IMG/VR virus record: IMGVR_UViG_3300048929_000742
Location: 1 to 47,032 of that record
Length of the DNA stretch: 47,032 nt
Strand: one strand, 5' to 3'
Source: a virus
The number at the start of each line of letters is the position of its first letter. Position 1 is the stretch's first letter. Under the pieces are notes generated by a model. It was not told the DNA's origin. It ran no database searches and saw only the letters and a program-made list of their open reading frames with translations. A program made the translations under genes and the position numbers. This document shows positions 29 to 36,492 of the stretch, piece by piece.

Positions 29-104
<76 letters not shown>

Positions 105-141
105 CTACTTTCCCAACAAAAACAGTCAGTTACGCAACCGA

Positions 142-172
142 CCGACAAACCGGAAATTGACCGACATACACA
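142..172. promoter_or_regulatory. Operator-like 7-mers beside attL
   Basis: Two copies of the dispersed C(A/C)(G/T)ACA(A/T) site are seen here: CCGACAA at 142-148 and CCGACAT at 161-167, 19 bp apart (two helical turns), followed by CATACAC at 165-171. They lie between attL and the first phage gene. They could be repressor operators for that gene or integrase/excisionase arm-type sites; the same motif lies beside attR. Confidence 0.5.
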
Positions 173-222
173 TGTTTGGGCACTTTTTTGGGCACTCGTC
201 GGCGCACAAGGGAAAGCCTGAC

Positions 223-498: not shown

Positions 499-830
499 CG
501 GACGAAATCGACTGGCTGCAGAACAGCGCACGCTGGTATGAATTCCGCCACGGCGACGTCGAACGAAACCCGAGTATGCCCGGCACGTCGCTTGCTCGAG
601 CGCGATCAAAAGCGCATCGGGAATTCGATGTCATCTGGAAAATGGGTTTCATGACCAGGACGGAAGCCTACATTTGGCTTGCGGATAAAATGGGCCTGCC
701 CGCCCATAACTGCCACATGGGCATGTTCAATGAGGGGCAATGCGAACGGGTCGTCGAAGTCGTTCAAGCTTTCTGGAAAACAAAGCCGGTTCGCAAGCCC
801 CGCAAAAAGAGAAACTGGCGGCGCTTTTAA
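495..830 (+). CDS. DUF3268-like protein (zinc-finger half missing)
   Basis: The 111-aa product contains a segment with GFMTRTEAYIWLADKMGL and HMGMFNEGQCERVV, which matches my recollection of the C-terminal half of DUF3268 phage proteins, where a helical region follows a CxxC zinc ribbon. The N-terminal cysteine ribbon is absent here, leaving a short charged N-terminus. The C-terminus is strongly basic (KPRKKRNWRR), compatible with nucleic acid binding. It overlaps the upstream gene by four bases and is followed by a terminator at 964-997. Function is unknown. Confidence 0.7.
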   Translation: MTDEIDWLQNSARWYEFRHGDVERNPSMPGTSLARARSKAHREFDVIWKMGFMTRTEAYIWLADKMGLPAHNCHMGMFNEGQCERVVEVVQAFWKTKPVRKPRKKRNWRRF

Positions 831-15125: not shown

Positions 15126-17327
15126 TCAAATAGGGCTTGCGACCTGGTTCGAACCGAACGACGGGCCGGTTCCACCTTCGCCCCTTGGCGGTTGCGGAGC
15201 GTTGTTCGCGCCTTGTGGCCCTTGCGCTGCCGGATCCGACGCAGGATCGCCAGCCGGTGCGCCCATTTGCGATTGCTGGTTCATCGACACGATCGACGGA
15301 ATACCGGCAGCAATAGCAGCCGTCAGGTCCATTCGATCGTCAAGACGACGCAGCGTTTCGCGGGCAAGCCAGTAAGGATCGATGTTCGGCAGCTGCATAA
15401 CCAGCGGCAACATCTGCTTCCAATTATTGATTTCGACGGCCTGGTTCGGCTTACCTGTCGATCCGGCTTCGACTTCCAGAAACACTTCGTCGGCGATCTC
15501 GGCCAGTGTCAGTTCGGGCCAGACCGCGCCAGGGCCTGCGATCTCGGCAACCTTTTCGGCCGAATACTCGCGCAGCATGATCTGGCCGGATGCACGCGCG
15601 ATCGTCGTCAAGAAGCTGTCGAGATCGTCGATCGCCGAACCGTCCGACGACGTCGTCGAATTGGCGGCGATCGCGCTCTCCGTTGCGGTGGCCTTTGCCA
15701 CGCCGCCGAACTGCGCTTCCTGCGTCCCGACGACAAGCTGCGTGTCGGTGAAGACTTCGTTCGTATCGTAGAGGTTCGGATCGACACCCGGCACCGGCAG
15801 TGTCTGAAGAACGTTCTGAATGCTCGTCGTCGGATCGATGTTCAGCCCGACGGCTTCGAAAGCTTTCAGATTGCGAATGGCCTGCGGATCGTCTTCGTCA
15901 CCGAACGAACCGTTCGCAAACACCCAACGCGGCCTTGCGGCTTCGCGGTGTTCCCGCTTGCCCTGGCGTGATCGGTTATGCTCCTTCTGCATGTCGAGCA
16001 TCAACGACACGTCGGACGGCGGAAACAGCTCGTCTTCGCTTTCGACATCGTTGAACGTCAGAGCATAGATCGGCCAGAAGTCTTCGACGAAGACGTCCGG
16101 CGGCGCGGGCTTGCGAAGAAAATTTGGGTGGCCGTCTGCAAGGTAATAGACCAGCCCGGACGGCTTGTCGTAATACTTCCAGACCAGCACCATACCGTTT
16201 TTCTTTTCAGACGGCGGCGACCATTCGTAGTCATCATCAAGAACGTCGTTCGAACTGATTTCGCGCGAAGACCCGGCATTCGCCGTGTAGCTGGTGTAAG
16301 CGCTGGTCACGTCGACGTCGAACAGTTCCTTCACTTCGTCGACCGTGTAAACGTATTCGATCGTCATATGCCGGGCGCCGACGAAACCGTCGAGCGACTT
16401 GCAGAGCTTATCCGGAATGACCTTCGTCGACTGAGGGAAATCGAAGATCAGGCCTTCGCGCAGCAAGATTTCCGGCTCACTCATCAACGCTTCGACACTG
16501 TGCTCGAGCTCGGCACGCTCCGCAGCGTCGATATCCATTTCGCCTTCGGCCATTTCTTCCGCGAGGCGACGCATGTGATCCAGACGAACGCGGGCGTCGG
16601 CCAGTTTCTCGGTCATGCCGGGACGCGGGCCATACTCGCGCTGAAAGCCTAATTCGACATAGCCGACAGACGTCGTGCAAGCGCGGCGGACAAGCTTCTT
16701 CATAGCCCGCTTGAAATCGATCGGCTTCTGTTCCCGCATACCATGCGAGAACAGAATTTCCATCGTCTTGCCGATCTTGTCGATCATCGTCCGGCGCGCC
16801 ATTCCCTGTTGGAAATCGGCCATTGTTGCTTGCGCCTGCTCGAAACCGGGTGGCAGCTGCGGTTCGGGTGCCGGCATGATCGCGCCGGTCAGTGGATCCT
16901 GTTGCGCGGTGGCGGTCTGCGCCAGTTGGACGGCTTGCATACCCATCTGTATCGTTTGATAGGCAAGCATGAGCGAAGCGGGGTTTTCGTCCCATACGGC
17001 GAAGTCCAGCGTTTCTTTCCGCCTGGCGACAGCCCGTGGGTTCTTGGCATAAAGCGCCGCTGTCTTTTGCTTGACGTGGCGCCCCGCGATATTGGCGCGA
17101 TAGCGTTCTTCGCCCCAATCCTTGTCAGCGCCCCACATAGCAATTTGCATATCGCGACGCATGCGTTTGAAAGCACGTTCGTGGTGCTTTTTGTCAGCTT
17201 TGATAGTCCGGCAAATCTGCGCAACAAGGGCTTTGTCCTGTCGTGAAACTTCCGCGTCCTTCTCGGCGTCGGCCGTTTCGATGGCGTTTGTCTCGTTCTG
17301 CTGGCCGACGTCGTCCGCGAAATCCAT
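15126..17327 (-). CDS. Portal protein
   Basis: The 733-aa product follows the large terminase directly (TGATG overlap) and has the size and features of podovirus portals: RMRRDMQIAMWGADKDWGEERYRANI near residues 70-100 (quoted in two parts: RMRRDMQIAMWGADK, then DWGEERYRANI), PVLVWKYYDKPSG-like strands in the centre, IYALTFNDVESEDELFPPSD and a C-terminal Pro/Gly/Asn-rich tail. GGAGG lies six bases before the chosen ATG. It forms the dodecameric DNA channel at one capsid vertex and docks the terminase. A role as portal is supported mainly by order and size. Confidence 0.8.
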   Translation of the reverse strand: MDFADDVGQQNETNAIETADAEKDAEVSRQDKALVAQICRTIKADKKHHERAFKRMRRDMQIAMWGADKDWGEERYRANIAGRHVKQKTAALYAKNPRAVARRKETLDFAVWDENPASLMLAYQTIQMGMQAVQLAQTATAQQDPLTGAIMPAPEPQLPPGFEQAQATMADFQQGMARRTMIDKIGKTMEILFSHGMREQKPIDFKRAMKKLVRRACTTSVGYVELGFQREYGPRPGMTEKLADARVRLDHMRRLAEEMAEGEMDIDAAERAELEHSVEALMSEPEILLREGLIFDFPQSTKVIPDKLCKSLDGFVGARHMTIEYVYTVDEVKELFDVDVTSAYTSYTANAGSSREISSNDVLDDDYEWSPPSEKKNGMVLVWKYYDKPSGLVYYLADGHPNFLRKPAPPDVFVEDFWPIYALTFNDVESEDELFPPSDVSLMLDMQKEHNRSRQGKREHREAARPRWVFANGSFGDEDDPQAIRNLKAFEAVGLNIDPTTSIQNVLQTLPVPGVDPNLYDTNEVFTDTQLVVGTQEAQFGGVAKATATESAIAANSTTSSDGSAIDDLDSFLTTIARASGQIMLREYSAEKVAEIAGPGAVWPELTLAEIADEVFLEVEAGSTGKPNQAVEINNWKQMLPLVMQLPNIDPYWLARETLRRLDDRMDLTAAIAAGIPSIVSMNQQSQMGAPAGDPASDPAAQGPQGANNAPQPPRGEGGTGPSFGSNQVASPI

Positions 17328-18997
17328 CAAAAACCTCCGGCCGATTTGCGCGCTTGCTCGCTCTTCGTCCAATTATCCTGAAGTTTAACCCATGCTAGGC
17401 TGCCGAACTTCGGTTGTTCCTGCCGCTTTTGCGCTGCTGTATTTTTACCCGGCCCGAACTGACTTTGCAATCCAAGCCCGATATAGGCCAAGGCGTCGAC
17501 GAAATCGTCGTGCGGGCCGTTCGGGAAAGCCATCATTTCGTTGATCGCTTTTTCCACCCACAATTCGCCGCGCGGGAAAAAGACCTTACCCATAGCGACA
17601 CGGGCGGCGATCGACTGCGCGCGCTGCGCCTTGTCATTCGCCGGGGTCACTTCACGGATGTTGATGTAGACGCCAGTTTCCAGCATGCGCTTGCGCAGAA
17701 ATGGCCCGATTGACTTCGATATGTGGCCTTTTTCCGCCCACCACAGGAGCGGCTTCATATTGCCGCGGCACATGTTGATCATGGCTTCGGTCGCGACGTC
17801 GGATTTCATCTTCCGCCAGTCGCATTCGAGAATAAATATATTATTCTGCCGGTCGACGCCGACTTTCAGCAAACAGCTCGGGTCATTGCGCTGGCCTGTC
17901 GCGACGGCATGGTCAGACGACGCATAGATGCGCAAATCTTCCGGCAGCGCCGCCGTGTTGTCAGCGCCCGAGTGCGTCCAGAAGCGAATATTCTCACGCT
18001 TGAACAGATCGCCGTCGAGCAATGACGGGCGCTGCTGGTAAAGCGCTGCAAAACCGAGCGGGTCAAGCGACTGCTGTTCTTCCAGAAAATCCAGATCGAA
18101 TTTGTCGGGGCCATCCGCCCACAACGGTTCGCCCGCCACACGCCCGAGCGGGTCGTCGTCTTCAGCAATCGCGGGCAGATTGATAATCTTGATCTTCTGC
18201 GCCAGCTTCGGATTGTAATGCTGGTTTTCGGGATCCGTCAGGCGGCCAATCGGGTCGTCGGCGTGCCAGCGCGTAAACGTCATGATGACAAGCTTCAGGC
18301 CCATACGGCGCGACATGGCGACCTTCGTAAACCAGTTCCATGCCTGGTCGCGGATTGCCTGCGACTGCGCTTCCTTGTCGTCCTTGATCAGGTCGTCGAT
18401 GATCAGCAGATGCGCGCCGCGGCCCGTCAGCGAGCCGCCACGGCCGACGAACGACCATTGGCCGCCTGCGGTCGTCTTCAGGAAGTCGGACGCCGCGCCT
18501 CCGCGTTGTAGCCTGACGCTCGGGAATACCTGCTTGAACTGCGACGACTGCACGATCGAACGCACGTCTTTGCCGAAGTCGGACGCGAAATCGTCGTTGT
18601 AGGTCGCGACGACGCCGTTCTGCGTCGGAAATTTGCCGAGAAACCACGCCGGCAGGCGGCGCGATACCTGTTCGGACTTTCCGTGGCGCGGAGGCATGGT
18701 CAGGATCAGAAACCGGATTTTCCCGGAAACGACCTCTTCAATCACCCGGGCAATCGCCCGATGATGCTTGGCATCCTGGTATTTCGACCGGTCAATATCG
18801 TTGGGGTCTTCCGGATCCGGCGACGTAAACTTGATGAAGGGCATGAAACGATCGCGCGCTTCAATGGCCTTCTGCTGTCGCTTCAGCAGCCCGAGCTGCT
18901 TATGGATCTCGACGACGTCCGTCTGTTTGGCCGCTCGCTGTTCCGCTTCCCAATCCAGGCGTTTGCCGGTCTTCGGATTGATGCTGCTACGGGCCAT
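17327..18997 (-). CDS. Terminase large subunit
   Basis: The 556-aa protein has the packaging ATPase with Walker A MPPRHGKSE (residues about 101-109), Walker B LLIIDDLIKD (197-206), an ATTACK-like C-motif region (VIMTFTRWHADD) and an RNase H-like nuclease domain with ASSDHAVATG near residue 360 and the C-terminal HDDFVDALAY acidic pair. All key residues are present and length is typical. It cuts concatemers and pumps DNA into the prohead through the portal, the next gene. The small subunit is encoded 3 kb upstream, with the lysis genes between them, which is an unusual order. Confidence 0.92.
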   Translation of the reverse strand: MARSSINPKTGKRLDWEAEQRAAKQTDVVEIHKQLGLLKRQQKAIEARDRFMPFIKFTSPDPEDPNDIDRSKYQDAKHHRAIARVIEEVVSGKIRFLILTMPPRHGKSEQVSRRLPAWFLGKFPTQNGVVATYNDDFASDFGKDVRSIVQSSQFKQVFPSVRLQRGGAASDFLKTTAGGQWSFVGRGGSLTGRGAHLLIIDDLIKDDKEAQSQAIRDQAWNWFTKVAMSRRMGLKLVIMTFTRWHADDPIGRLTDPENQHYNPKLAQKIKIINLPAIAEDDDPLGRVAGEPLWADGPDKFDLDFLEEQQSLDPLGFAALYQQRPSLLDGDLFKRENIRFWTHSGADNTAALPEDLRIYASSDHAVATGQRNDPSCLLKVGVDRQNNIFILECDWRKMKSDVATEAMINMCRGNMKPLLWWAEKGHISKSIGPFLRKRMLETGVYINIREVTPANDKAQRAQSIAARVAMGKVFFPRGELWVEKAINEMMAFPNGPHDDFVDALAYIGLGLQSQFGPGKNTAAQKRQEQPKFGSLAWVKLQDNWTKSEQARKSAGGF

Positions 18998-19472
18998 TTT
19001 GCGAACGCGCCGGTTTGACGCCCGGATTGGACTGCGTCAGCATTTCCCGAATGAAACGAATATCCGAGCCTTGGCTTTGAACTGCGGTTTTCAACTCGTC
19101 GACGCTTTTCGCCAGCGTCGCGGAACCTTGTTCCTGCACGGTCAGGCGATAGGACAAATTATCGATCTTGCGCAGTTCTACTTCGTGCCCGGTCAGTCGC
19201 TGATCAGTGCGCGCGTCGGTCGTGGCGATCGCGGTGGCGCGCTCCTTGTGCAGCTGTTCGTGATTTGCCTGCCAGGCGTTGTTGCGGTTTTCGTAGTTGT
19301 CGATCCGGGTCGTCAGCGAGCCCCAGACGACGCCCCATCCCGCAAAGGTCGCGCAAAGCCCGATCGTGACGACAGCGGTCGTCATATTCAGCTCATATTT
19401 GACTTTCGGGGCCGAAATCTGCATATCGCCATCCTCGTCGTTTGCGGCGGGCGAGCGTCGAAAGTTGCTCAT
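18987..19472 (-). CDS. Membrane-anchored coiled-coil protein in the lysis cluster
   Basis: The 161-aa product has a hydrophilic N-terminus, one transmembrane helix at about residues 29-50 (NMTTAVVTIGLCATFAGWG), then a long helical coiled-coil-prone region up to residue 145 with heptad-like Leu/Val/Ile. The ATG at 19472 has GGTGGAA upstream. It overlaps the o-spanin gene upstream by four bases and the terminase gene by 11. It could be a holin accessory or antiholin-like factor; topology (one N-terminal segment and long external helix) also resembles inner-membrane spanins. No firm assignment. Confidence 0.65.
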   Translation of the reverse strand: MSNFRRSPAANDEDGDMQISAPKVKYELNMTTAVVTIGLCATFAGWGVVWGSLTTRIDNYENRNNAWQANHEQLHKERATAIATTDARTDQRLTGHEVELRKIDNLSYRLTVQEQGSATLAKSVDELKTAVQSQGSDIRFIREMLTQSNPGVKPARSQNGP

Positions 19473-19657
19473 TTCCACCCGCATCGCTTGGCGCCGTAGC
19501 TGTTATGCTTCAAGATCTGCGTCTGCGTTTCGGGCGTTACCTTGTCGTCGATTGACGGACGAATGGGCGATGCCGTGTCGCAGAAGTCACTTGTCACGCA
19601 GCCACTTGTTCCACTCACGATCGCGATCAGCGCTGCGCATAGTGTCAATCTTTTCAT
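19469..19657 (-). CDS. Outer-membrane spanin (Rz1-like lipoprotein)
   Basis: The 62-aa product has a lipoprotein signal (MKRLTLCAALIAIVSGTSGC) with the acylated Cys at residue 20 and a 42-residue mature tail containing DFCDTASPIRPS, TPETQTQILKHN and a final GAKRCGW, a pattern I recall from small phage o-spanins. Residue -3 of the lipobox is Thr, slightly off consensus. The gene starts inside the preceding gene in a different frame, as in lambda Rz/Rz1. It would span the periplasm with the inner partner and fuse the membranes at the end of lysis. Confidence 0.8.
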   Translation of the reverse strand: MKRLTLCAALIAIVSGTSGCVTSDFCDTASPIRPSIDDKVTPETQTQILKHNSYGAKRCGWK

Positions 19658-21023: not shown

Positions 21024-21410
21024 TCAAGCCTTATGCGTTCCCTCGACGCCGCGGCGCATACGCGCCAGCGTCCGGGCTTGCAGCCAATGCTGCGCTTCTT
21101 CGATTTTCGTCAACGCCAGTGCATTTTCGCGGCAGGCGAATGGCCCTGCTTGAAAAGAACGAAGCCGGTCTGCGACGATTGCGAGAAGCGCCTCCTGCGT
21201 GACACCGTTAACCCCGGCTTCGTCGATAGGGCCGTTCTGAAAATTTATGTCCCACACACCGACCGCGCCGGATCCGTCGGGCGCGCGTGTCCAATTCGGC
21301 GTCGTGATCATGTAATGGTGGTTCGCGCCGCCCGCGCCAGCTTCGTCGAGAACGGAAATACTCAGCTGATCGTTTGCCGGGTTGATTTTATGCTCATCGA
21401 GAGTGCGCAT
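21024..21410 (-). CDS. Tad1/Acb2-like protein, candidate signal sponge
   Basis: The 128-aa product has a beta-rich N-terminal part (NDQLSISVLDEAGAGG, HHYMITTP, VGVWDINFQNGP) and a helical C-terminal hairpin with CRENALALTKIEEAQHWL and a final RGVEGTHKA. The (E)xxLALTKLEEAxxW signature is the one I recall from Tad1/Acb2-type hairpin domains, which sequester cyclic nucleotides or gcADPR made by CBASS and Thoeris immune systems. Widespread phage homologues with the GVEGTH end are usually left unnamed. The gene has its own promoter (21514-21542) and a structured leader, separate from the late operon. Ligand binding is inference. Confidence 0.6.
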   Translation of the reverse strand: MRTLDEHKINPANDQLSISVLDEAGAGGANHHYMITTPNWTRAPDGSGAVGVWDINFQNGPIDEAGVNGVTQEALLAIVADRLRSFQAGPFACRENALALTKIEEAQHWLQARTLARMRRGVEGTHKA

Positions 21411-21864: not shown

Positions 21865-22326
21865 TCACTCGAAAACGTCAGCACCCGAGGCACTGATCGG
21901 CTCTTCGATCGCATCGATCGGCTTGGCCTTGTCAGCGGCTGCACGCTCCAAGGCTGCGATGGCATTCGCCAGTTCTTCGCCCGACATTTCGTGCGGTTCC
22001 TTGCTCTGTTTCAGGTCGTCCATGCCAAGCGTGCGGTCCATGACGACCTTAGCCGCCTGCACTCTGGCCCCTGCCGGTGCCTTGCTGTTGCTGATGATCT
22101 CGACGAGGCAACGCACGGCGGCGGGCAGCGCTTCCGAGAATAGCCGCTCCTGCTGCTGGCGCCCGATTTCGGCGAGCACAGCGGGCCTGGAAAGCGCCCT
22201 GCCAGCGTCCCGCGCCGGTTGCTTGTAGCCCGCTTCCTTCGCCGCATATATCCTGTCGCCGGTGGCCGCCATGCGGTCGATAAACACCTTTTCAGCCGCC
22301 GTAGTCTTCCCGCTTTTGATCGGCAT
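21865..22326 (-). CDS. Terminase small subunit
   Basis: The 153-aa product has an N-terminal DNA-recognition helix-turn-helix (roughly residues 8-55: FIDRMAATGDRIYAAKEAGY, then RALSRPAVLAEIGRQQ), a central helical oligomerisation segment and an acidic tail ending ADVFE, the shared Val-Phe tail of this phage. The pattern matches the P27/terS HTH families. It selects phage DNA and recruits the large subunit. ATG at 22326 is preferred, although an in-frame TTG five codons earlier exists. It is separated from the large subunit by the lysis genes and lies next to the iteron array, which may be its binding site. Confidence 0.78.
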   Translation of the reverse strand: MPIKSGKTTAAEKVFIDRMAATGDRIYAAKEAGYKQPARDAGRALSRPAVLAEIGRQQQERLFSEALPAAVRCLVEIISNSKAPAGARVQAAKVVMDRTLGMDDLKQSKEPHEMSGEELANAIAALERAAADKAKPIDAIEEPISASGADVFE

Positions 22327-22422
22327 TCCCGCTACTTCCAATCCAGATTGTTGAACAATCCATTACATATTGTTCACACGTCCCGCAATATGCGGCGCTT
22401 CTGATCTCGAATTTACCCGCTT

Positions 22423-22465: not shown

Positions 22466-22635
22466 ACCCGCCATCCTTCGTCCCGAGCATTGGCCCTTGT
22501 CGTCGGCCCTTTGCCTTCCGCTACTGGGACAATTTGTCCGCGCCCTTGTTCGGGCGCTCTGCCTGTCGGTACAAAATACAAGTGCGGGTTAGGCGGCCTA
22601 TCAGGGCCGCCACCCGCTATACGTAGTATAGGGTT

Positions 22636-22824
22636 AACTTCCGTACTTCCGTAAAACAACCTCCGTTAATAAAATCAATAACTTAGCGATACACTACCGT
22701 ACTTCCGGGAACTTCCGTACAGACTTCCGTAAACTCAATTAAATCAATAACTTAGCTTACAACCTCCCGGGACTTCCGTAAACCTCCGTATCAACTTCCG
22801 TAAACCTCCGTAGACTTCCGTTAG
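22636..22824. repeat. Iteron-like array, 13 copies of (A/G)AC(C/T)TCCGTA
   Basis: Thirteen close matches start at 22636, 22645, 22658, 22693, 22701, 22710, 22722, 22761, 22771, 22781, 22793, 22803 and 22813. Two AT-rich copies of AAATCAATAACTTAGC (22672-22687 and 22741-22756) interrupt the array. All repeats point the same way and occupy the gap directly after the primase-polymerase gene; the last copy reaches its stop codon. Layout is that of an iteron-type replication origin with unwinding elements; a terminase binding (pac/cos) site is the alternative. No other feature is seen in 22466-22635 apart from a 13-bp palindrome at 22527-22539. Confidence 0.75.
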
Positions 22825-24944
22825 TCGAAAACGCTCTTCTCAGGGACAATCTGTCCGGCATCAGCAAGCACTTTATAACCCCTGCGCTTGCTATCACTGT
22901 CGACCATTTCGACCCGAATTAGCCCTGACGCCTCCCAAAGCTTCAGTGTCTCTTCCGCGTCGGCGCCGTCAAAACCGTAGTCAAGGACCATTCGGCGGAC
23001 CGCATATCTGTCTTTCGCCTGCGGTGCCTTCGACCACGGTTCACCCTCATTCCACGCTTTGCGCATGGCGTCGAAGACAGAGGCCGTCGTGTCGGGTGTC
23101 AGCTCTGTGCCCGGCCCGATGGTCTGATCGGCGCGCTCGACAGTGATCGACGTTTCGCCACCTTCTAGCGCGACCGTGTCGAAGCGATAGGGCTCGTCCC
23201 AACCGTCCGGCCCGTCCTTCATCTTTTCGCATTCGATATGACCGACGGTCGCACCCTTGCGACGCTCGAGGCGGAAGACGAAGTCGCCCGCGCCTAGGAG
23301 CACCGTGGAACCGCGCATGTCGCCTGATTTGCCCGCATGGTGCACACCGACCACGGCGCCGCCTGTGGCGTCCCTGACAGCGTCACAGGCCTGCACGAAC
23401 CGCGTCATGTCTTTTTGCAAGTTCTCGTCTGCGCCTGGCATCGCACGCGACACGGTGTCGACGATGACTAGGGCGAATTTCGCGCCGGTCTGTTGCTGCG
23501 CGTTTGCGACCGTGCGGATCAGCTTCTGCATGTCATCTGGCGACATGAAGTTGATTGTCTCTTCGATCATCTTGAACCGAGACAGGAGCTGATCGGCGTC
23601 ACCGTGCTTCTTGATCCATGCCTCGATACGGTTCCTGAAACCGTAGGAACCTTCGGCCGCGAGATAGAGCACTTGCGCATTGTCGTCGAAGATCAGTTCG
23701 TCGCCGTTCCATTCCCTCTTCCCCGATGCGACATGAAGGGCGACGTCGAGGATCCAGAACGACTTGCCGGCACCCGGCACGCTGTAGAGAAAGCCGACAG
23801 AGCGCTTGGGGATATGGCGCGCGACCAGCCATTCGGCCGGTGGGCGATTGCGCAGATCGTCGAGCGTGATCAGCCTGAACGTGTCCGTGCTTGCTGTGGG
23901 GCGCGCTGCGAGCTCGGCAAACGGGTTTGTCGGTTCCTGGATATCGTCGAACCAGACCGACGCCGTCGTGAACTGGCCGCTGCTGTGACGCTCTGCCAGC
24001 TCGTAAAGCCAGCCTGCGCCGCGGCGGAATGGCGGCTTCATGCGGTCCCAATCCGCCCTGACGACGTCGGGGTCGTTATCACCGTCCGTCCACTTGTCGC
24101 ACCAGTCCGAAAAGATATGGAATGCTGTTTGCGGATCGTCGGGCAGTGCCGCCTTGATCGCATAGCCGATGCCGCAATAGCTTTCGCGCGACGGAAACAG
24201 ATCGGACGTGTTGGGGATTGCTGCGACGGCCTGTTCGATGTTCTCGCGCGTGCCTTTCAGCGCGTCCTGATTGATATCCGTGTTGGCGCCTTCGCGGATG
24301 ACTTCACCAGCTGCGGGCAAGAGCGGACGCAGCTTTTCAAGCAGGGCGGTGATTTGCTCGGGCTTGAATATCGGCAGCTCGTCGAACGGTAGAAGCGGCT
24401 TTGCCCATGTGTAGGGCTTTTGCGTCTTCGGGTGGATCCCGTGGACGACGAACTGCCTGCCATCTGAAAGGATTTCGACACGGTCAAGCAATCTGTTCTT
24501 GTCGTCGCGCTCGCCAAATTCGACGCGGCTATATTGAAAAGGGCCATCGACCCGGCAGACATAGGCCGCCTTCGGGTAATTGCCGATACGGATTGGCATG
24601 TCGCCCAGGTGTTCGGCGATGACGTCGCGGATGATGCGCGCGTGGTTTTCGTTCTTCGTGTCGGCGTCGATGACGATCAGGCCCCGCCCCGTCTTGATAC
24701 CGACGCCGGCGCCCATGGCGTTCCAGCGATGCAGATCGCGTTCGTCGGCCTCATATGGCAGCCAATCGAAGCCGGACCAGTCGCCGTCCCTGTTGCGCAC
24801 GCCCGGTGTCTTGCCGCGCCCGTCCTGTGTCGTGCCTACACGCTTGAACAGCGTCGACTTTTCCGAAATTTTGGCGTCGGGCGGAATGATGGGAACAAGC
24901 CGGGCATAGCCGAGCGAATGGAATTTGAGAAAAGGATTGCTCAC
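22821..24944 (-). CDS. Primase-polymerase / RepA-like ATPase replication protein
   Basis: The 707-aa product joins a bifunctional primase-polymerase domain (about residues 10-190, with GAGVGIKTGRGLIVIDADT carrying the catalytic acidic residues and a later HGIHP) to a RecA-fold ATPase of the RepA/AAA_25 type (about 370-590) with Walker A SVPGAGKSF and Walker B FALVIVDTVS, followed by GVHHAGKSG. A winged-helix-like end precedes the SVFD tail. It probably primes and unwinds phage DNA at the adjacent iteron array. GTG at 24944 is chosen: it gives the start SNPFLKFHSLGYARL three bases after the upstream stop; two GTG codons upstream are possible. Confidence 0.85.
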   Translation of the reverse strand: MSNPFLKFHSLGYARLVPIIPPDAKISEKSTLFKRVGTTQDGRGKTPGVRNRDGDWSGFDWLPYEADERDLHRWNAMGAGVGIKTGRGLIVIDADTKNENHARIIRDVIAEHLGDMPIRIGNYPKAAYVCRVDGPFQYSRVEFGERDDKNRLLDRVEILSDGRQFVVHGIHPKTQKPYTWAKPLLPFDELPIFKPEQITALLEKLRPLLPAAGEVIREGANTDINQDALKGTRENIEQAVAAIPNTSDLFPSRESYCGIGYAIKAALPDDPQTAFHIFSDWCDKWTDGDNDPDVVRADWDRMKPPFRRGAGWLYELAERHSSGQFTTASVWFDDIQEPTNPFAELAARPTASTDTFRLITLDDLRNRPPAEWLVARHIPKRSVGFLYSVPGAGKSFWILDVALHVASGKREWNGDELIFDDNAQVLYLAAEGSYGFRNRIEAWIKKHGDADQLLSRFKMIEETINFMSPDDMQKLIRTVANAQQQTGAKFALVIVDTVSRAMPGADENLQKDMTRFVQACDAVRDATGGAVVGVHHAGKSGDMRGSTVLLGAGDFVFRLERRKGATVGHIECEKMKDGPDGWDEPYRFDTVALEGGETSITVERADQTIGPGTELTPDTTASVFDAMRKAWNEGEPWSKAPQAKDRYAVRRMVLDYGFDGADAEETLKLWEASGLIRVEMVDSDSKRRGYKVLADAGQIVPEKSVFD

Positions 24945-24946
24945 GG

Positions 24947-25345
24947 TCACGCACCACCCCACATGTTAAGGCGGCGCAGCTCTGCGACTTCCTGTTTGAC
25001 GAGATCAATGGCCCGCGGCGGAAGCGGGGCAAGGCCGATGACGATAGGCAGACTGGTGATTTGCGAAAGCGCGACGAATGCGGCGGCCTCTTCCAGATAA
25101 TCGGCACCGGATGCGCAACGGATATACCACACGCCATTGCGCAGCTCGAGCTTATCGGGCCAGTTGTGGCATCGCGGGTAGGCGAGAAAGAAATCGACAA
25201 TAGCCCGCATTTCCGGCCGGTCATCGTCTGGCGTGTTAAGCTTCAGCTTTCGAAGGCGTTCGTCGTTCAGCACTTCAAAGAATGCGCTTCTCAGATCGCG
25301 ACGCCCGCGCCAATCTGCCTGTCTCTGTCTTAGTGTCTTGTTCAC
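24947..25345 (-). CDS. Unknown protein upstream of the replicase
   Basis: The 132-aa product starts at a GTG with a weak GCGGGG element. It has a basic N-terminal helix (NKTLRQRQADWRGRRDLR), a central LELRNGVWYIRCASGADYLE segment and a helical Leu-rich end. No family is recognised. It ends three bases before the replicase start, so the two are likely co-transcribed from the operator-bearing region at 25371-25468, which suggests a replication accessory role. Confidence 0.65.
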   Translation of the reverse strand: MNKTLRQRQADWRGRRDLRSAFFEVLNDERLRKLKLNTPDDDRPEMRAIVDFFLAYPRCHNWPDKLELRNGVWYIRCASGADYLEEAAAFVALSQITSLPIVIGLAPLPPRAIDLVKQEVAELRRLNMWGGA

Positions 25346-26462: not shown

Positions 26463-26726
26463 TTAGTCGAAGACGGAGGCCGACGGCGGATCTGGTTCGG
26501 GCTGCGGCTCTTCAGGTTCGGGGCTGGTCTCGGGCGGGAACGCCTTGTCCATGGCTTCTTCGGCGGTGGCGCCGACGAACTGATATGGCGCGACGTCCGC
26601 TTCAGGCGGCATGATTTCCAGCGTCACGACGCCGCGTGGCTCGAAAGCGTAGAGCGCGAACCCACAATCAGGATTTGACGCGCGCAGCTGGTCGAAACGC
26701 TCAATCGAAGATGTTGAGGGGCGCAT
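26463..26726 (-). CDS. Unknown early protein with VFD tail
   Basis: The 87-aa product has a mixed alpha/beta core (residues about 8-65, including SNPDCGFALYAFEPRGVVTL) and a Pro/Glu-rich linker leading to the end SASVFD. The flexible acidic linker before the tail is the layout expected of an exposed C-terminal docking peptide, as in SSB proteins. The gene overlaps the RHH gene by 26 bases. No family known. Confidence 0.65.
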   Translation of the reverse strand: MRPSTSSIERFDQLRASNPDCGFALYAFEPRGVVTLEIMPPEADVAPYQFVGATAEEAMDKAFPPETSPEPEEPQPEPDPPSASVFD

Positions 26727-26946
26727 GGGCGGCCTCCTTCTTGACGATGCGTTCGACTTCCTTGTCGCCGCGCTCGCGCACGTACTCGGTCAGTACGGAC
26801 GAAACGACGCGGCTGCGGGTCGCACCAAGATGCGCGGCGACGTTATCGATCCGCGCGATCAACGACTTTTCCAACCTGAAGGAGATCGGTTTGCTGCGCC
26901 CTTCAGGCGGGCTTGCCGATGGCTCTTTCTCGACACTCTTTGTCAA
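26701..26946 (-). CDS. Ribbon-helix-helix DNA-binding protein
   Basis: The 81-aa product contains a typical Arc/CopG ribbon-helix-helix: strand KPISFRLEKS, then helices SLIARIDNVAAHLG and TRSRVVSSVLTEYVRERG (about residues 19-60). The TTG at 26946 is chosen since AAGGAG lies nine bases upstream and a good promoter (-10 at 26981-26986) stands just before it; longer frames would start upstream of that promoter. It ends LNIFD, a variant of the shared tail. Likely an early transcription regulator; operator not identified. Confidence 0.78.
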   Translation of the reverse strand: MTKSVEKEPSASPPEGRSKPISFRLEKSLIARIDNVAAHLGATRSRVVSSVLTEYVRERGDKEVERIVKKEAAHAPLNIFD

Positions 26947-26973
26947 AGCTTTCTCTCCTTGCGGTGTTGACAG

Positions 26974-27037
26974 TGTCTGTTTTGTATGACAGTTGTATGC
27001 CACTGTCAACAGACAAAACAGACAGATCAACCGACAA
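26974..27037. promoter_or_regulatory. Divergent operator region with - strand promoter
   Basis: On the - strand, -35 TTGACA (27004-27009) and -10 TACAAA (26981-26986) are 17 bp apart and drive the RHH gene. Operator-like 7-mers TTGTATG (26982, 26993), CAGACAA (27010), CAGACAG (27019) and CCGACAA (27031) cover both the promoter and the path to the + gene at 27049. The region thus serves two divergent units. Confidence 0.7.
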
Positions 27038-27048
27038 AGGATAGCGCA

Positions 27049-27783
27049 ATGCCAAAGAACAAAACCGCAGCGACCACCGAAACCGTCATCGCCTACAAGG
27101 GCTTTTCGAAAGACTTCGCATGCCGCGAATTCGCGTTTGAAATCGGCCAGACCTACAGCGTCGACGGCAATGTCCGCGCCTGCCGCAACGGTTTTCATGC
27201 CTGCGAGTATCCGCTTTCTGTGTTCGATTATTACGCCCCGGCGACGAGCCGGTCTGCACTCGTCGAGCTGTCTGGCGATATGGACGTCGAGGGCGACAAG
27301 ACGGCGGCGCGCACGATCAAGGTAATCAAGGAACTTACCCATTTTGAAATGATCGACGCCGCTATCGCGTACACCATGAAGCGCGTGACGGTCGAAGAAG
27401 GCGCGACAGCATCCGGCTATCAGGGCGCGGCGACAGCATCCGGCTATCAGGGCGCGGCGACAGCATCCGGCTATCAGGGCGCGGCGACAGCATCCGGCTA
27501 TCAGGGCGCGGCGACAGCATCCGGCGATCAGGGCGCGGCGACAGCATCTGGCACTCAGGGCGCGGCGACAGCATCCGGCTATCAGGGCGCGGCGACAGCA
27601 TCCGGCCTAGAAGGACGGGTCAGCGGGGCCGACGGCAACGCACTGTTTGCCGTCGAACGCGGCGAATGGGATGGCGAGGGCTATCCGATCTTGTCCGTCG
27701 CCTGCGGTATCGTCGGTAAAGACGGCCTCCTGCCCAACACCTGGTACGTCGCCAAGGGTGGGAAGCTGGTTGAGATCGTCTGA
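27049..27783 (+). CDS. DUF7666-like protein with 9-aa tandem repeats
   Basis: The 244-aa product has an N-terminal domain (about residues 1-110) with YKGFSKDFACREFAFEIGQ and CRNGFHACEYPLSVFDYY, which I recall from phage proteins now grouped as DUF7666, then eight copies of (G)AATASGxQ (residues 118-187), and a C-terminal domain with GNALFAVERGEWDGEGYPI and NTWYVAKGGKLVE. The repeats may form a beta-solenoid whose length varies. AAAGGAT lies before the ATG. It overlaps the next gene by one base. Role unknown. Confidence 0.7.
   Translation: MPKNKTAATTETVIAYKGFSKDFACREFAFEIGQTYSVDGNVRACRNGFHACEYPLSVFDYYAPATSRSALVELSGDMDVEGDKTAARTIKVIKELTHFEMIDAAIAYTMKRVTVEEGATASGYQGAATASGYQGAATASGYQGAATASGYQGAATASGDQGAATASGTQGAATASGYQGAATASGLEGRVSGADGNALFAVERGEWDGEGYPILSVACGIVGKDGLLPNTWYVAKGGKLVEIV
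27400..27609 (+). repeat. 27-bp in-frame tandem repeat array (8 units)
   Basis: Units of GGCGCGGCGACAGCATCCGG plus a variable CTATCAG-type end repeat with almost no synonymous change; the first unit is 24 bp. Units differ only in the eighth or ninth codon (TAT, GAT, ACT, CTA). Such identity at nucleotide level means recent expansion by slippage or recombination. Confidence 0.9.
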
Positions 27784-30431: not shown

Positions 30432-31024
30432 TGGAAAACGAAGCGTTTGTGGATAAGCCGAACGAGGTCGTCGAGGAAGTTACGCCTCCCCGCCCGCCCA
30501 CCGTGCCGCGTTTCTTCGTGGACGCCGACGGCAAATATCTCGGCTCTTTCGATGGCCTGGACGAGGAAATTCCGGCGGACATGGCGAACGGAATTGAAGT
30601 CCCTACTGCGCCTGTAGACGGGCGTCAGGTTTGGAACGGCAATGAATGGCTTTTAGCCGTCCCGACTTCCGAGCAGGTAGACGCGGAGCGAGATCGACGC
30701 ATTGACGGCGGCTTCGTTTTTCAGGGCGTTCTGTATCAATCACGGTCATCGGATCGTGAGAACATTGCGGGGGCTTCTACGGCCTCCGGCATCGCTATGG
30801 TGACGGGCTCGGAAGTAGGCGACTACCGCTGGCACGGCGGCGATGAAGACTTCGCTTGGATCGCCGCCGACAACAGTACACATTTGATGGACGCACAAAC
30901 GATGTTTGCGTTCGGGCAAGCGGCCATGGCTCATAAAAGCAATCACATTTTCGCGGCACGCGCGATCAAGGATATGGTGCCTGTACCCGCCGATTACGCC
31001 ACTAATCCGGCTTACTGGCCGTGA
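30431..31024 (+). CDS. DUF4376-like tail fibre assembly protein
   Basis: The 197-aa product has RFFVDADGKYLGSFDGLD, GRQVWNGNEWLLAVPTSEQV and DGGFVFQGVLYQSRSSDREN, then helices with MDAQTMFAFGQAAMAHKSNH; this is the DUF4376 arrangement found behind phage tail fibre genes. It starts at the A of the upstream TAATG. Such proteins probably chaperone fibre trimerisation or attachment. Confidence 0.8.
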   Translation: MENEAFVDKPNEVVEEVTPPRPPTVPRFFVDADGKYLGSFDGLDEEIPADMANGIEVPTAPVDGRQVWNGNEWLLAVPTSEQVDAERDRRIDGGFVFQGVLYQSRSSDRENIAGASTASGIAMVTGSEVGDYRWHGGDEDFAWIAADNSTHLMDAQTMFAFGQAAMAHKSNHIFAARAIKDMVPVPADYATNPAYWP

Positions 31025-32566: not shown

Positions 32567-34915
32567 CTAATCCTTCCTGTATCGCTTCCCGCGCCAACCG
32601 CCTGCCGTTAACGGCAGGCCTTTCGCCCATGTCGGCAACTCGCAGATCAGCTTTTCGAATTCTGCGAGATTGCCGAAGCTACGCGGCACTTCCGTGATGA
32701 TTTCATCGTAGACCGTGGCGATGATCGGATAGCCCGCTTCTTCCGCCTTGAACATGCCGTTCACCAGCAAATCGCGGGCAATGGCCTGCGTGTTGTTTTC
32801 CGCCAATAGACCGCCATAAAGCGCCGAACGTTCCCATCGCTTCGTCGTCGAGTTGACGCCAAGGAATGTGACCTTGTCGGACGTCCGCCCGTCGATCTTG
32901 ACCAGCTCCATACGCTCGCGCCGCTCGGCGACGTCGCGGTCCATGACTTCCGCGTCAGACCATTCACCATCAGGCAGCAGAACCTTGGCCCATACCTGCG
33001 CTTTCAGCTTCGGGGCGGCGTAGGCAAGGCAGCGGCCGGACGGCAGACGCGCCCACAGGAAACCGTGCTTGACGAGATAGTCGACCTTGGCGGCCCGTGC
33101 CACCGTGCCCGGCTCTTCGACGGCCTGACGGACGGCAGCCTCGAGATCCTTCCACGACTGCGCAATGGCAGAGTTTGCCGATCGCCAGCCTAGCTTAATG
33201 ATCTCGCAGGCGATCCAGGCGTTGCGCGATAGCTCCTTCGTTCCGTAAAGACCGCGCTTCGAATAGCTTTCGTAGGACTTGACGGCCTTCGACTGACGGG
33301 CTTCTTCGGCAGCGGCCCACACCGGTTCGAACAGCGGATCCAGACGCACGCCATAGTTCCGGGCAAAGGTAACGAAGGCCATAACCCCACCACCGAAGGA
33401 CAGGCCCAATTCGGCGGGCTTGCCTACGCCCTGACGCAGCGGGTGTTTCTTCGTAATAATGTCGGTCGTCGTGTTCAGGATCGAGGCGGCCGTTCGACGA
33501 TACATATCGGGCAGGCTCGGGTCAGCGATCAGATCGAAGATCGCCTGAACCTTCCAATCCTCGCCGGACGTCCACGCAATGACGTTGCCTTCGATGTTCG
33601 AAAAGTCGGCCTGCAGCAGATCATGGCCGGGTGCGGCCCAAATGAAGCCGCGGATCGCGTCGGATATCAGGTGTAGCGACCGCCCAAGCATACCGTCTTG
33701 CGTCGGCATGAGAAACCGCGCCAGCTCGGGCGCGGTCGGCGCAGGCTGTTCCGGGTAAAGGAAGGCCAACAGTTCGGGGTCTTCGCGGCGGAAGGCTTCG
33801 AACAGCAGATCAGTACGGGGCTTGTTGTCGTCATAGACCTTGCGCGGGCGCGGAAGGTTGTTCCAGTTCACGCCGACGCTCTGCGTGCGGCCTGTGCCTG
33901 CCTGGTGATAGATGAAGCCGCCGCGCACGCGTCCGTCAGCGCTGGCGCGGTCCAGCATGGCCTGTAGCTTCGAAACGGACGTCTTTGCGGCTTCCTGCCG
34001 GATCTCGAGCGCACGGCGAACGTCAGCCGGGAGATCGTCGCTTTCCAGCAGATCGGTTATCTCTGCCTTGCCGGCGGATTGCATGACCGCTGTTTCTTCA
34101 TAGTCGTTCGACATGAGCCCCGGGCGAACACCCAAGCGGCTGTTCACCCACTCGACGAGTTTTCCGGGCGTGGAACAGTTCTTGACCGCGCCGCCTGTGA
34201 CCTGTCGCATTTCGCGGTCAAGCGCAGTCTTTGCCTTTTCGGCCAGCCGCAACGCAGCGTGGGCGCTTTTGCGATCGATGCGTATCCCGCGCCGGTTGAT
34301 CAATTCGGTTAGCTGCCACACGGCCTGTTCGGCATTGGACAGCGGGACCATGCGCTTGTCGGCAGCAGCTTCGACGATGACGTCCTGATCGCGGTAGTCC
34401 TGAAATTTGGTGTAGTCTTCCGGAAACTCTTCCGGCTCGTTGAAATAGACGCCGTTCGGGTCTTCGCCCTTGCGGGGTTTGCGCGGGATCGAAAACAGCT
34501 TGATAAGCCGCGAGCCCTCTTTGTCCTTGCGCGCTTCCAGCCCAAGCGCTTCCGCCAGCCCCGTGACGGCGCCCTTCGTATCCAGTGCGCGCGGCAGCGA
34601 CATGGCGGCAGCAGTGGCCGCTGTACAGCGGAACTGCTCGTAACGGGGCATCGGCCAGCCAAGGTTCCGGTGCAGCCATTCGAAGCATTGGATTTCAAAG
34701 CCCGCATTGTGCGCGGATATCACGGCGTCGTCGTCGATGGCCCGGCGCAGATCGTCCGGCAACCGCTGCCCGTAATCCCAACGGCGCATCGGTCCGTGGT
34801 TGATCTGATAGGATCCGCCGAGAACGCGGGCGTGCGGGCTTTCGAAATACTTGTAGACACCGAGCTTGATCGGCACGTCGCTGCGGGTTTCAAAATCGAT
34901 TTCGACGCCAGTCAT
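32567..34915 (-). CDS. Family A DNA polymerase with 3'-5' exonuclease domain
   Basis: The 782-aa protein has an N-terminal DEDD exonuclease (Exo I VEIDFETRS at residue 4; later acidic motifs including YRDQDVIVEA) and a family A polymerase domain: motif A LLQADFSNIEGNVIAW, motif B region KHPLRQGVGKPAELGLSFGG and motif C TVYDEII, where most relatives have VHDE. DFS-IE in motif A is a known phage variant of DYSQIE. It copies the phage genome, probably with the Prim-Pol, helicase and SSB-like proteins. Last gene of its operon, overlapping the methyltransferase by four bases. It lacks the Val-Phe tail shared by its neighbours. Confidence 0.9.
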   Translation of the reverse strand: MTGVEIDFETRSDVPIKLGVYKYFESPHARVLGGSYQINHGPMRRWDYGQRLPDDLRRAIDDDAVISAHNAGFEIQCFEWLHRNLGWPMPRYEQFRCTAATAAAMSLPRALDTKGAVTGLAEALGLEARKDKEGSRLIKLFSIPRKPRKGEDPNGVYFNEPEEFPEDYTKFQDYRDQDVIVEAAADKRMVPLSNAEQAVWQLTELINRRGIRIDRKSAHAALRLAEKAKTALDREMRQVTGGAVKNCSTPGKLVEWVNSRLGVRPGLMSNDYEETAVMQSAGKAEITDLLESDDLPADVRRALEIRQEAAKTSVSKLQAMLDRASADGRVRGGFIYHQAGTGRTQSVGVNWNNLPRPRKVYDDNKPRTDLLFEAFRREDPELLAFLYPEQPAPTAPELARFLMPTQDGMLGRSLHLISDAIRGFIWAAPGHDLLQADFSNIEGNVIAWTSGEDWKVQAIFDLIADPSLPDMYRRTAASILNTTTDIITKKHPLRQGVGKPAELGLSFGGGVMAFVTFARNYGVRLDPLFEPVWAAAEEARQSKAVKSYESYSKRGLYGTKELSRNAWIACEIIKLGWRSANSAIAQSWKDLEAAVRQAVEEPGTVARAAKVDYLVKHGFLWARLPSGRCLAYAAPKLKAQVWAKVLLPDGEWSDAEVMDRDVAERRERMELVKIDGRTSDKVTFLGVNSTTKRWERSALYGGLLAENNTQAIARDLLVNGMFKAEEAGYPIIATVYDEIITEVPRSFGNLAEFEKLICELPTWAKGLPLTAGGWRGKRYRKD
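32600..32619 (+). terminator. 20-bp palindrome, possible terminator of the tail unit
   Basis: A perfect palindrome with centre GTTAAC lies inside the 3' end of the DNA polymerase gene, 68 bases after the last + strand stop, and is followed on + by CTTTCG. It may end the tail fibre transcript against the opposing operon; the short T-run makes this uncertain. Confidence 0.35.
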
Positions 34916-35664: not shown

Positions 35665-36492
35665 TTAGTGCGGTCCTGTCTGAACGTATTGCTTGATCTG
35701 ATCTCTCATCGAATTGGCGAAGAGCGTCAGTGCGACGGTTATTCCCGTGACCGGGGCGACTGCGATTTCCTGCACGCACTTGGCGCGCTCGCTGGTCTTT
35801 GCGACGGCAACGGCTGCGGCTTTGTCGGCAGCAGCAGCTGTCGCGTCCTGCGCCCGTAGCGCTGTGCATTTCTGCTGCTCGTCAGCCCGCGCGGCGGCGA
35901 CCGCTTGAGAAAGGGCCGTCGCTGCGGCGGCAGCGTCTTGTTGACGCAGGGTTGTGCATTTGGCCTGTTCATCTGTCCGCGCTGCTGCGACGGCCTTTGC
36001 CTTGTCGCTGACAGCTGCCGTGGCGTCCTGTTGACGGAGCGTGGCGCACTTCTGCTGCTCGTCGGCACGAGCTGCGGCAACGGCCTGATTTTGTGCGTTC
36101 GCGGCGGCTGTGGCGTCTTGCTGGCGGAACGTGGTGCACTTCTGCTGCTCGTCGGCGCGGGCGGCAGCGACGGCTTTATCTTGCGCCTGTCTGGCGTCCG
36201 TAGCGGCCTTGTCGGCGGCGATCCTGGCGGCTGCGCGTTCATCCTCCCGCGCCGCGGCAATTGCTCTTTGCAGGGCCGTTGCATCGGTCTGGCGCTGTGC
36301 GTCGACCTGTTCCTGCATGGCGGTCATTTCGGCGGCGCGCTCGGTACGCATATCGTTGACGGTTGCCGCAACGGCTGCCCGGATCCGCTCTTGAACGACG
36401 GTGCTTTCCGGGCCTGACACGACTTGGTTGATGATCGGGTATATGCTGGCGATAATGCGCTTCGTGCGCTCTTCAGGGGTTAGATGGCTCAT
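35665..36492 (-). CDS. Ala-rich coiled-coil protein with 30-residue Cys repeats
   Basis: The 275-aa product has a helical N-terminal domain (residues 1-75) and then five or six 30-residue repeats of the form KAVAAARADEQQKCTTLRQQ plus DATAAA, with Cys at residues 119, 149, 179, 209 and 239, exactly 30 apart. A short hydrophobic segment (ITVALTLFANSM) and a basic end follow. A long rod-like coiled coil, perhaps cross-linked or binding a metal, is likely. It sits between two methyltransferase genes with a four-base overlap to one. Function unknown. Confidence 0.65.
   Translation of the reverse strand: MSHLTPEERTKRIIASIYPIINQVVSGPESTVVQERIRAAVAATVNDMRTERAAEMTAMQEQVDAQRQTDATALQRAIAAAREDERAAARIAADKAATDARQAQDKAVAAARADEQQKCTTFRQQDATAAANAQNQAVAAARADEQQKCATLRQQDATAAVSDKAKAVAAARTDEQAKCTTLRQQDAAAAATALSQAVAAARADEQQKCTALRAQDATAAAADKAAAVAVAKTSERAKCVQEIAVAPVTGITVALTLFANSMRDQIKQYVQTGPH
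35773..36267 (-). repeat. 90-bp in-frame repeats with periodic Cys codon
   Basis: Units cover residues 76-105, 106-135, 136-165, 166-195, 196-225 and a degenerate 226-240. Units 2-5 keep AVAAAR(A/T)DEQ(Q/A)KC almost unchanged; unit 1 has lost the Cys. Confidence 0.85.

Follow-up and report, generated by a model that had tools for sequence, protein, structure and literature searches.

A candidate iteron origin beside a one-piece phage replicase, with iteron bases that covary with two residues of a predicted wing

Some mobile elements encode their own replication initiators. The alpha protein of phage P4 and the Rep proteins of SaPIs are self-sufficient, element-coded initiators with element-specific iterons, an arrangement that we also propose for the phage described here. 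In RSF1010, the origin carries about 3.5 iterons of 20 bp, with hairpins near the iterons. In pRN1, the gene for the Prim-Pol/helicase/winged-helix protein is followed directly on its 3' side by an origin element that is essential (PMC4234260), and the comparison with P4 is given in the same paper. Here, we describe an array of short repeats adjoining a replicase gene in an environmental virus (IMG/VR record IMGVR_UViG_3300048929_000742, positions 1 to 47,032). We refer to this whole 47,032-base stretch as the window. The features discussed below are as follows.

22821..24962, minus strand: replicase, 713 aa (Pfam, sequence profile, AlphaFold model)
residues ~72-197, minus strand: Prim-Pol domain of the replicase (Pfam PF09250)
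residues 245-323, minus strand: PriCT-2 domain of the replicase (Pfam)
residues 368-548, minus strand: AAA_25/RepA-type helicase domain of the replicase (Pfam, profile, Foldseek)
residues ~623-698, minus strand: predicted C-terminal winged helix of the replicase (AlphaFold model)
22866..22904, minus strand: wing and its strands, residues ~687-699 (VDSDSKRRGYKVL), coordinates from residue numbers
22637..22821, minus strand: iteron array, 13 copies; the same array lies 3' of the replicase in relatives
22762-22821, replicase strand: block I, six copies, spacing 10,10,12,10,10
22741..22756, plus strand: box 1, between blocks I and II, contains AATCAATAACTTA, IHF consensus
22693-22730, replicase strand: block II, four copies, spacing 12,10,8
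22672..22687, plus strand: box 2, between blocks II and III, contains AATCAATAACTTA, IHF consensus
22637-22666, replicase strand: block III, three copies, spacing 14,8
22576..22635, minus strand: hairpin-forming stretch (CCCTATACTACGTATAG... and a GC-rich inverted repeat), just past block III
17327-18997: large terminase (gene scan)

The two residues of the catalytic DxD of the Prim-Pol domain, D99 and D101, are invariant in five relatives, and the nearest PDB relative of the helicase domain is RepA of RSF1010 (1g8y/1olo/1nlf; profile E 3e-4, Foldseek E 1e-11). The C-terminal part is predicted by the AlphaFold model to form three helices, a strand, a wing and a strand. The top VIA-align matches of this domain are winged-helix domains (SAMD1 6lui, Z 8.4); because Foldseek matches it weakly at best (E 0.05 for the top hit), we treat the fold class as predicted. 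The wing segment, VDSDSKRRG, holds D690 and K692.

The same-direction repeats that a preliminary description of this DNA had pointed out are real. They comprise 13 copies of ~10 bp between 22637 and 22821, all on the plus strand; their word there, RACYTCCGTA, reads TACGGARGT on the replicase (minus) strand. The 8-base core ACYTCCGT is exact in 10 copies, and 10 exact cores in 185 bp is far above chance (Poisson P ~1e-29 from composition); outside the array, only one exact core occurs on either strand of the whole window. The reported count of 13 holds once three degenerate copies are admitted (22693, ACTACCGT; 22701, ACTTCCGG; 22762, ACCTCCCG), while the full word is exact in just seven. The array had also been placed in the gap after the replicase stop, and this requires correction, as the copy at 22814-22821, the first on the replicase strand and the last on the plus strand, overlaps the stop codon itself (22821-22823). 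Two spacers with the core AAATCAATAACTTAGC, 69 bp from one another, part the array into its three blocks. The hairpin-forming stretch next to block III has z = -4.4 in the window, and z falls below -2 in 32/48 arrays; this stretch is a possible priming site or terminator.

Other repeats occur in the window. The palindrome GGACANNNTGTCC has only three perfect copies (21649, 22527 and 22844), which lie near the array and on both sides of it, the one at 22844 inside the last replicase codons. It is also found in relatives (L007 at 4793, 5124 and 6343; L010 at 8029 and 8397; L004 at 8116; L008 at 5615; RHph_N65 at 34892). Elsewhere, a 27-bp tandem repeat (27403-27606, 7.6 copies at 96%) lies in a collagen/tail-fibre-like ORF (26986-27783), and a 90-bp tandem duplication (35981-36174, 2.2 copies) lies in an ORF (35665-36492) between methyltransferase-like genes.

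Rhizobium phage RHph_N65 (MN988536, array at ~34.9-35.1 kb), EBPR siphovirus 5, the Caenibius plasmid p1 and many IMG/VR contigs also have an array immediately 3' to the replicase gene. In 48 array-positive relatives, the array lies no more than 500 bases 3' of the replicase stop, and in 43 of these the distance to the first copy is at most 50 bases. The layout is shared, with short iterons in blocks and AT-rich boxes in between, and close relatives retain the geometry (13,10,8 and 14,8 within blocks, boxes 68-69 bp apart). What varies from phage to phage is the iteron word, with GGCGGAGAT, GGCGAGGGT, GGCGTARGT, TACGGAAGT and GGCGAAGCA all represented. The word does not track overall relatedness, because RHph_N65 has GGCGGAGAT, L004, whose replicase is 73% identical, has GGCGAGGGT, and L005 (60%) has TACGGAAGT. 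We called arrays with an automatic search for 8-mer families and left out loci with fewer than five copies, at which absence of an array is not thereby established. No array was seen 3' of the gene in many distant relatives in which little beyond the helicase part is shared, and none was seen 3' of the gene in the helicase relatives in Mycobacterium phage Courthouse and Polaromonas pPNAP03. Plasmid p1 of Caenibius sp. WL (L289, NZ_CP081845) is a circular phage-plasmid with terminase and capsid genes; its 12 iterons come right after the replicase gene (~21042-21230), and it has no other annotated initiator.

We then compared replicases, each aligned with its own iterons, by mutual information over ~540 replicase columns. 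Residue 690 ranked top for iteron positions 1 and 2 and residue 692 ranked top for position 5, with lysine at 690 accompanying G at position 1 and lysine at 692 accompanying G at position 5. Both residues fall in the wing of the predicted winged helix. The rule linking 690 to position 1 and 692 to position 5 was fixed in writing before further relatives were fetched; a script then called the iterons of the held-out loci, using positions 3, 4, 6 and 9 and no others to set the register. All 16 new loci, fetched or first examined after that point, agreed at position 1 (G in 6/6 with Lys690 and in 0/10 without it; Fisher 1.2e-4), and 15/16 agreed at position 5 for Lys692 with G (Fisher 0.003). Working from the DNA instead, four further loci found by pattern alone (GGCGGAAGT; GGCGGAAGTNNNGGCGGAAGT), counted with near-identical copies dropped, all encode Lys690 and Lys692. 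A search of viral contigs for TACGGAAGT pairs gave no new replicase locus, so this reverse test covers the Lys/GG class only. Across all 49 loci, the rule agrees in 47 at position 1 (exceptions L011 and L051) and in 46 at position 5 (exceptions L351, L078 and L046).

Shared ancestry was controlled for with a tree built from replicase residues 10-600, leaving out the C-terminal domain. On this tree, G at position 1 changes 13 times, and 12 of these changes share a branch with a change at Lys690; for G at position 5 and Lys692, the figure is 10 of 11. Of the 1,688 residue traits compared, none matches position 1 better than Lys690 (Jaccard 0.75) or position 5 better than Lys692 (0.77), the runners-up reaching 0.33 and 0.38. 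Aspartate or glutamate at 690 accompanies A at position 2 in 14/16 held-out loci and is not clearly ahead of other traits on the tree, and we treat this pairing as a tendency only. Two further links that were strong by mutual information are not claimed: that between 694 and position 7 (held-out Fisher 0.26) and that between 648 and position 8, neither of which is outstanding on the tree. The covariation and the held-out loci lend strong, though indirect, support to recognition of the array by the replicase through the wing of its predicted winged helix. The covariation argues for such recognition, not for a replication start at the array.

The spacers between the blocks had been described as AT-rich unwinding elements, which is at best half right: they are AT-rich, and they are also perfect matches to the IHF consensus. 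The consensus WATCAANNNNTTR occurs perfectly twice in the window, once per box. Among the arrays, the strict IHF consensus is present in 15/49 (0.13 expected in shuffles) and the IHF-type sequence WWTCAANNNNTTR in 41/49 (0.27 expected), leaving 8/49 arrays without an IHF-type box. In nearly all cases the strand opposite the replicase carries these boxes, with L053 as the exception. Because they match this consensus, the boxes appear to be more than plain AT-rich unwinding DNA; judged by sequence they are candidate IHF sites, which IHF may bind. Caenibius p1 has a different repeated box between its blocks, GAAACCCGCAGAAATCC, and L096 has a similar form of it.

At least 120 viral contigs contain the commonest 19-base form of the box, TAAGTCATTGAWWTCATTG, in many contexts, compared with 11 for the reversed pattern. 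We therefore rejected it as a signature of this origin alone; its spread fits a host-factor site that is not specific to this origin. Its contexts (L089-L208) include positions ahead of promoter-like sequences, next to tRNA genes and within repeat arrays of other kinds, for instance those with the words TTGACGTA (L154), AACTTACC (L157) and ACCTGTGA (L207). Some phage origins and attachment sites that have gone unrecognised may be marked by the box.

We infer, with a probability of about 85%, that the array serves as the replication origin of the phage, recognised by an initiator that the phage itself encodes as one polypeptide. An origin bound by the Prim-Pol/ATPase protein had been suggested before, and two findings now support it well: dozens of relatives keep the array 3' of the replicase, and its sequence covaries with the wing, held-out loci included. 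As in iteron-type origins, multiple short same-direction repeats adjoin the gene for the putative initiator. DnaA boxes are present in many, not all, origins of this type, and none (TTWTNCACA) was seen near the array, the sole copy in the window being at 30448. There is no long AT-rich unwinding region at the array, where the AT-rich DNA consists of the two boxes of ~20 bp that match the IHF consensus, and the GC skew of the window has a local C-rich dip only, with no clear switch. In the mechanism that we propose, the C-terminal winged helix would bind the ~10-bp iterons, whose word on the replicase strand is TACGGARGT; in its wing, residue 690 would read position 1 and residue 692 position 5, with an almost invariant CG between these positions. 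Within blocks the spacing is 8-14 bp, mostly about one helical turn, and adjacent subunits would thereby sit on much the same side of the DNA. Folding of the DNA at both boxes, by IHF or a host protein with similar bending activity, could then bring the blocks together, after which the RepA-type helicase ring would be loaded and the Prim-Pol part would prime synthesis, possibly at the hairpin just past the array.

The array could instead be a regulatory or copy-control site, acting by handcuffing, autorepression or a switch between replication and transcription, while replication starts elsewhere. Plasmid iterons serve both initiation and control, and the covariation, which speaks of recognition and not initiation, would suit this function too. 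The array, however, lies 3' of the replicase gene and not at a promoter, the architecture of the module matches known origins such as that of pRN1 (PMC4234260), and Caenibius p1 has no other obvious initiator. We consider a purely regulatory role unlikely. A centromere-like partition site of a phage-plasmid, in which rows of ~10-bp repeats are bound by a ribbon-helix-helix protein, would explain the short tandem repeats; one relative is indeed a phage-plasmid, and there is a weak ribbon-helix-helix match in 26701-27342. Against this, no partition ATPase was found among the window genes scanned or is annotated in Caenibius p1, and the array tracks the replicase in both position and sequence, which makes partition very improbable as the function of the array.

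Packaging is the reading to which we give the least credence. In lambda cosB and P1 pac, short repeats are combined with IHF sites, and the large terminase gene of the window is 3.6 kb from the array. A pac or cos site bound by terminase, as put forward in the preliminary description, would be expected to adjoin terminase genes across relatives, yet in RHph_N65 the array is ~8.6 kb from a large terminase that is 60% identical and is still beside the replicase, with which it also covaries. Nor is a small terminase gene recognisable beside the array. The gene at 21865-22341, which had been called one, has no detectable relation to small terminases, and that assignment is unsupported because the gene matches nothing. 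In RHph_N65 an HNH gene comes before the terminase; window 18987-19484 was considered as its counterpart and was rejected, as the two have no similarity.

Returning to the origin reading, we think it reasonably probable that a single Prim-Pol/RepA-helicase/winged-helix protein with a recognition code in its wing serves many replicons of phages and phage-plasmids, which would form a large family not described so far. Under this code, residue 690 would set base 1 (Lys for G; Asp/Glu with a tendency towards A at base 2), and base 5 would be set by residue 692 (Lys for G; His, Arg and Asn mostly for A). Origin specificity should therefore be predictable from the protein and should shift with one or two substitutions. 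If this is true, the window phage and L004, which are close relatives, have already switched codes, and co-infecting relatives would be kept off each other's origins, a possible explanation for how related phages keep their replicons apart. The origins of most environmental phages are unknown, and here the replicase gene by itself is enough to locate the candidate origin. The iteron sequence is in turn partly predictable from two wing residues, which offers a direct and inexpensive way to test recognition between initiator and origin in a phage family that is widespread. We found no published account of this origin family in the literature searched, which has most subscription journals outside it, and searches of that literature for the repeat words returned unrelated papers only.

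Compared with the described systems, P4 alpha and SaPI Rep differ from the replicase in having SF3 helicases and another iteron layout, and P4 has a bacterial Toprim-type primase. To our knowledge, no wing-to-base rule has been described for either protein. RSF1010 (IncQ), with its oriV and RepA, RepB' and RepC, shares with the window phage a RepA-type hexameric helicase, iterons and a replicon-coded primase. These functions reside in three separate proteins in RSF1010 and in one polypeptide here; RSF1010 has a separate initiator, RepC, for its 20-bp iterons, whereas here the winged helix is within the replicase and the iterons are ~10 bp, arranged as 13 copies in three blocks with IHF-type boxes. 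ORF904 of pRN1 has the same combination of an archaeo-eukaryotic-type primase-polymerase, a helicase and a C-terminal winged helix, with the origin directly 3' and a hairpin; its helicase is of the SF3 type and that of the replicase here is RecA/DnaB-like, and its origin has a 100-nt stem-loop and no iterons in place of the iteron array found here (PMC4234260). The winged helices of SAMD1 and of MOZ/MORF WH1, which the replicase C-terminus is predicted to resemble in fold, also recognise a CG dinucleotide, and in SAMD1 a hairpin enters the minor groove while the alpha1-alpha2 loop reads CpG (PMC9908889). These are eukaryotic chromatin proteins, and we claim no homology between them and the replicase. 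We class the array as a probable variant of iteron origins, and the new part is the two-residue recognition rule, carried by what would be a single-protein counterpart of the three-protein initiator of RSF1010.
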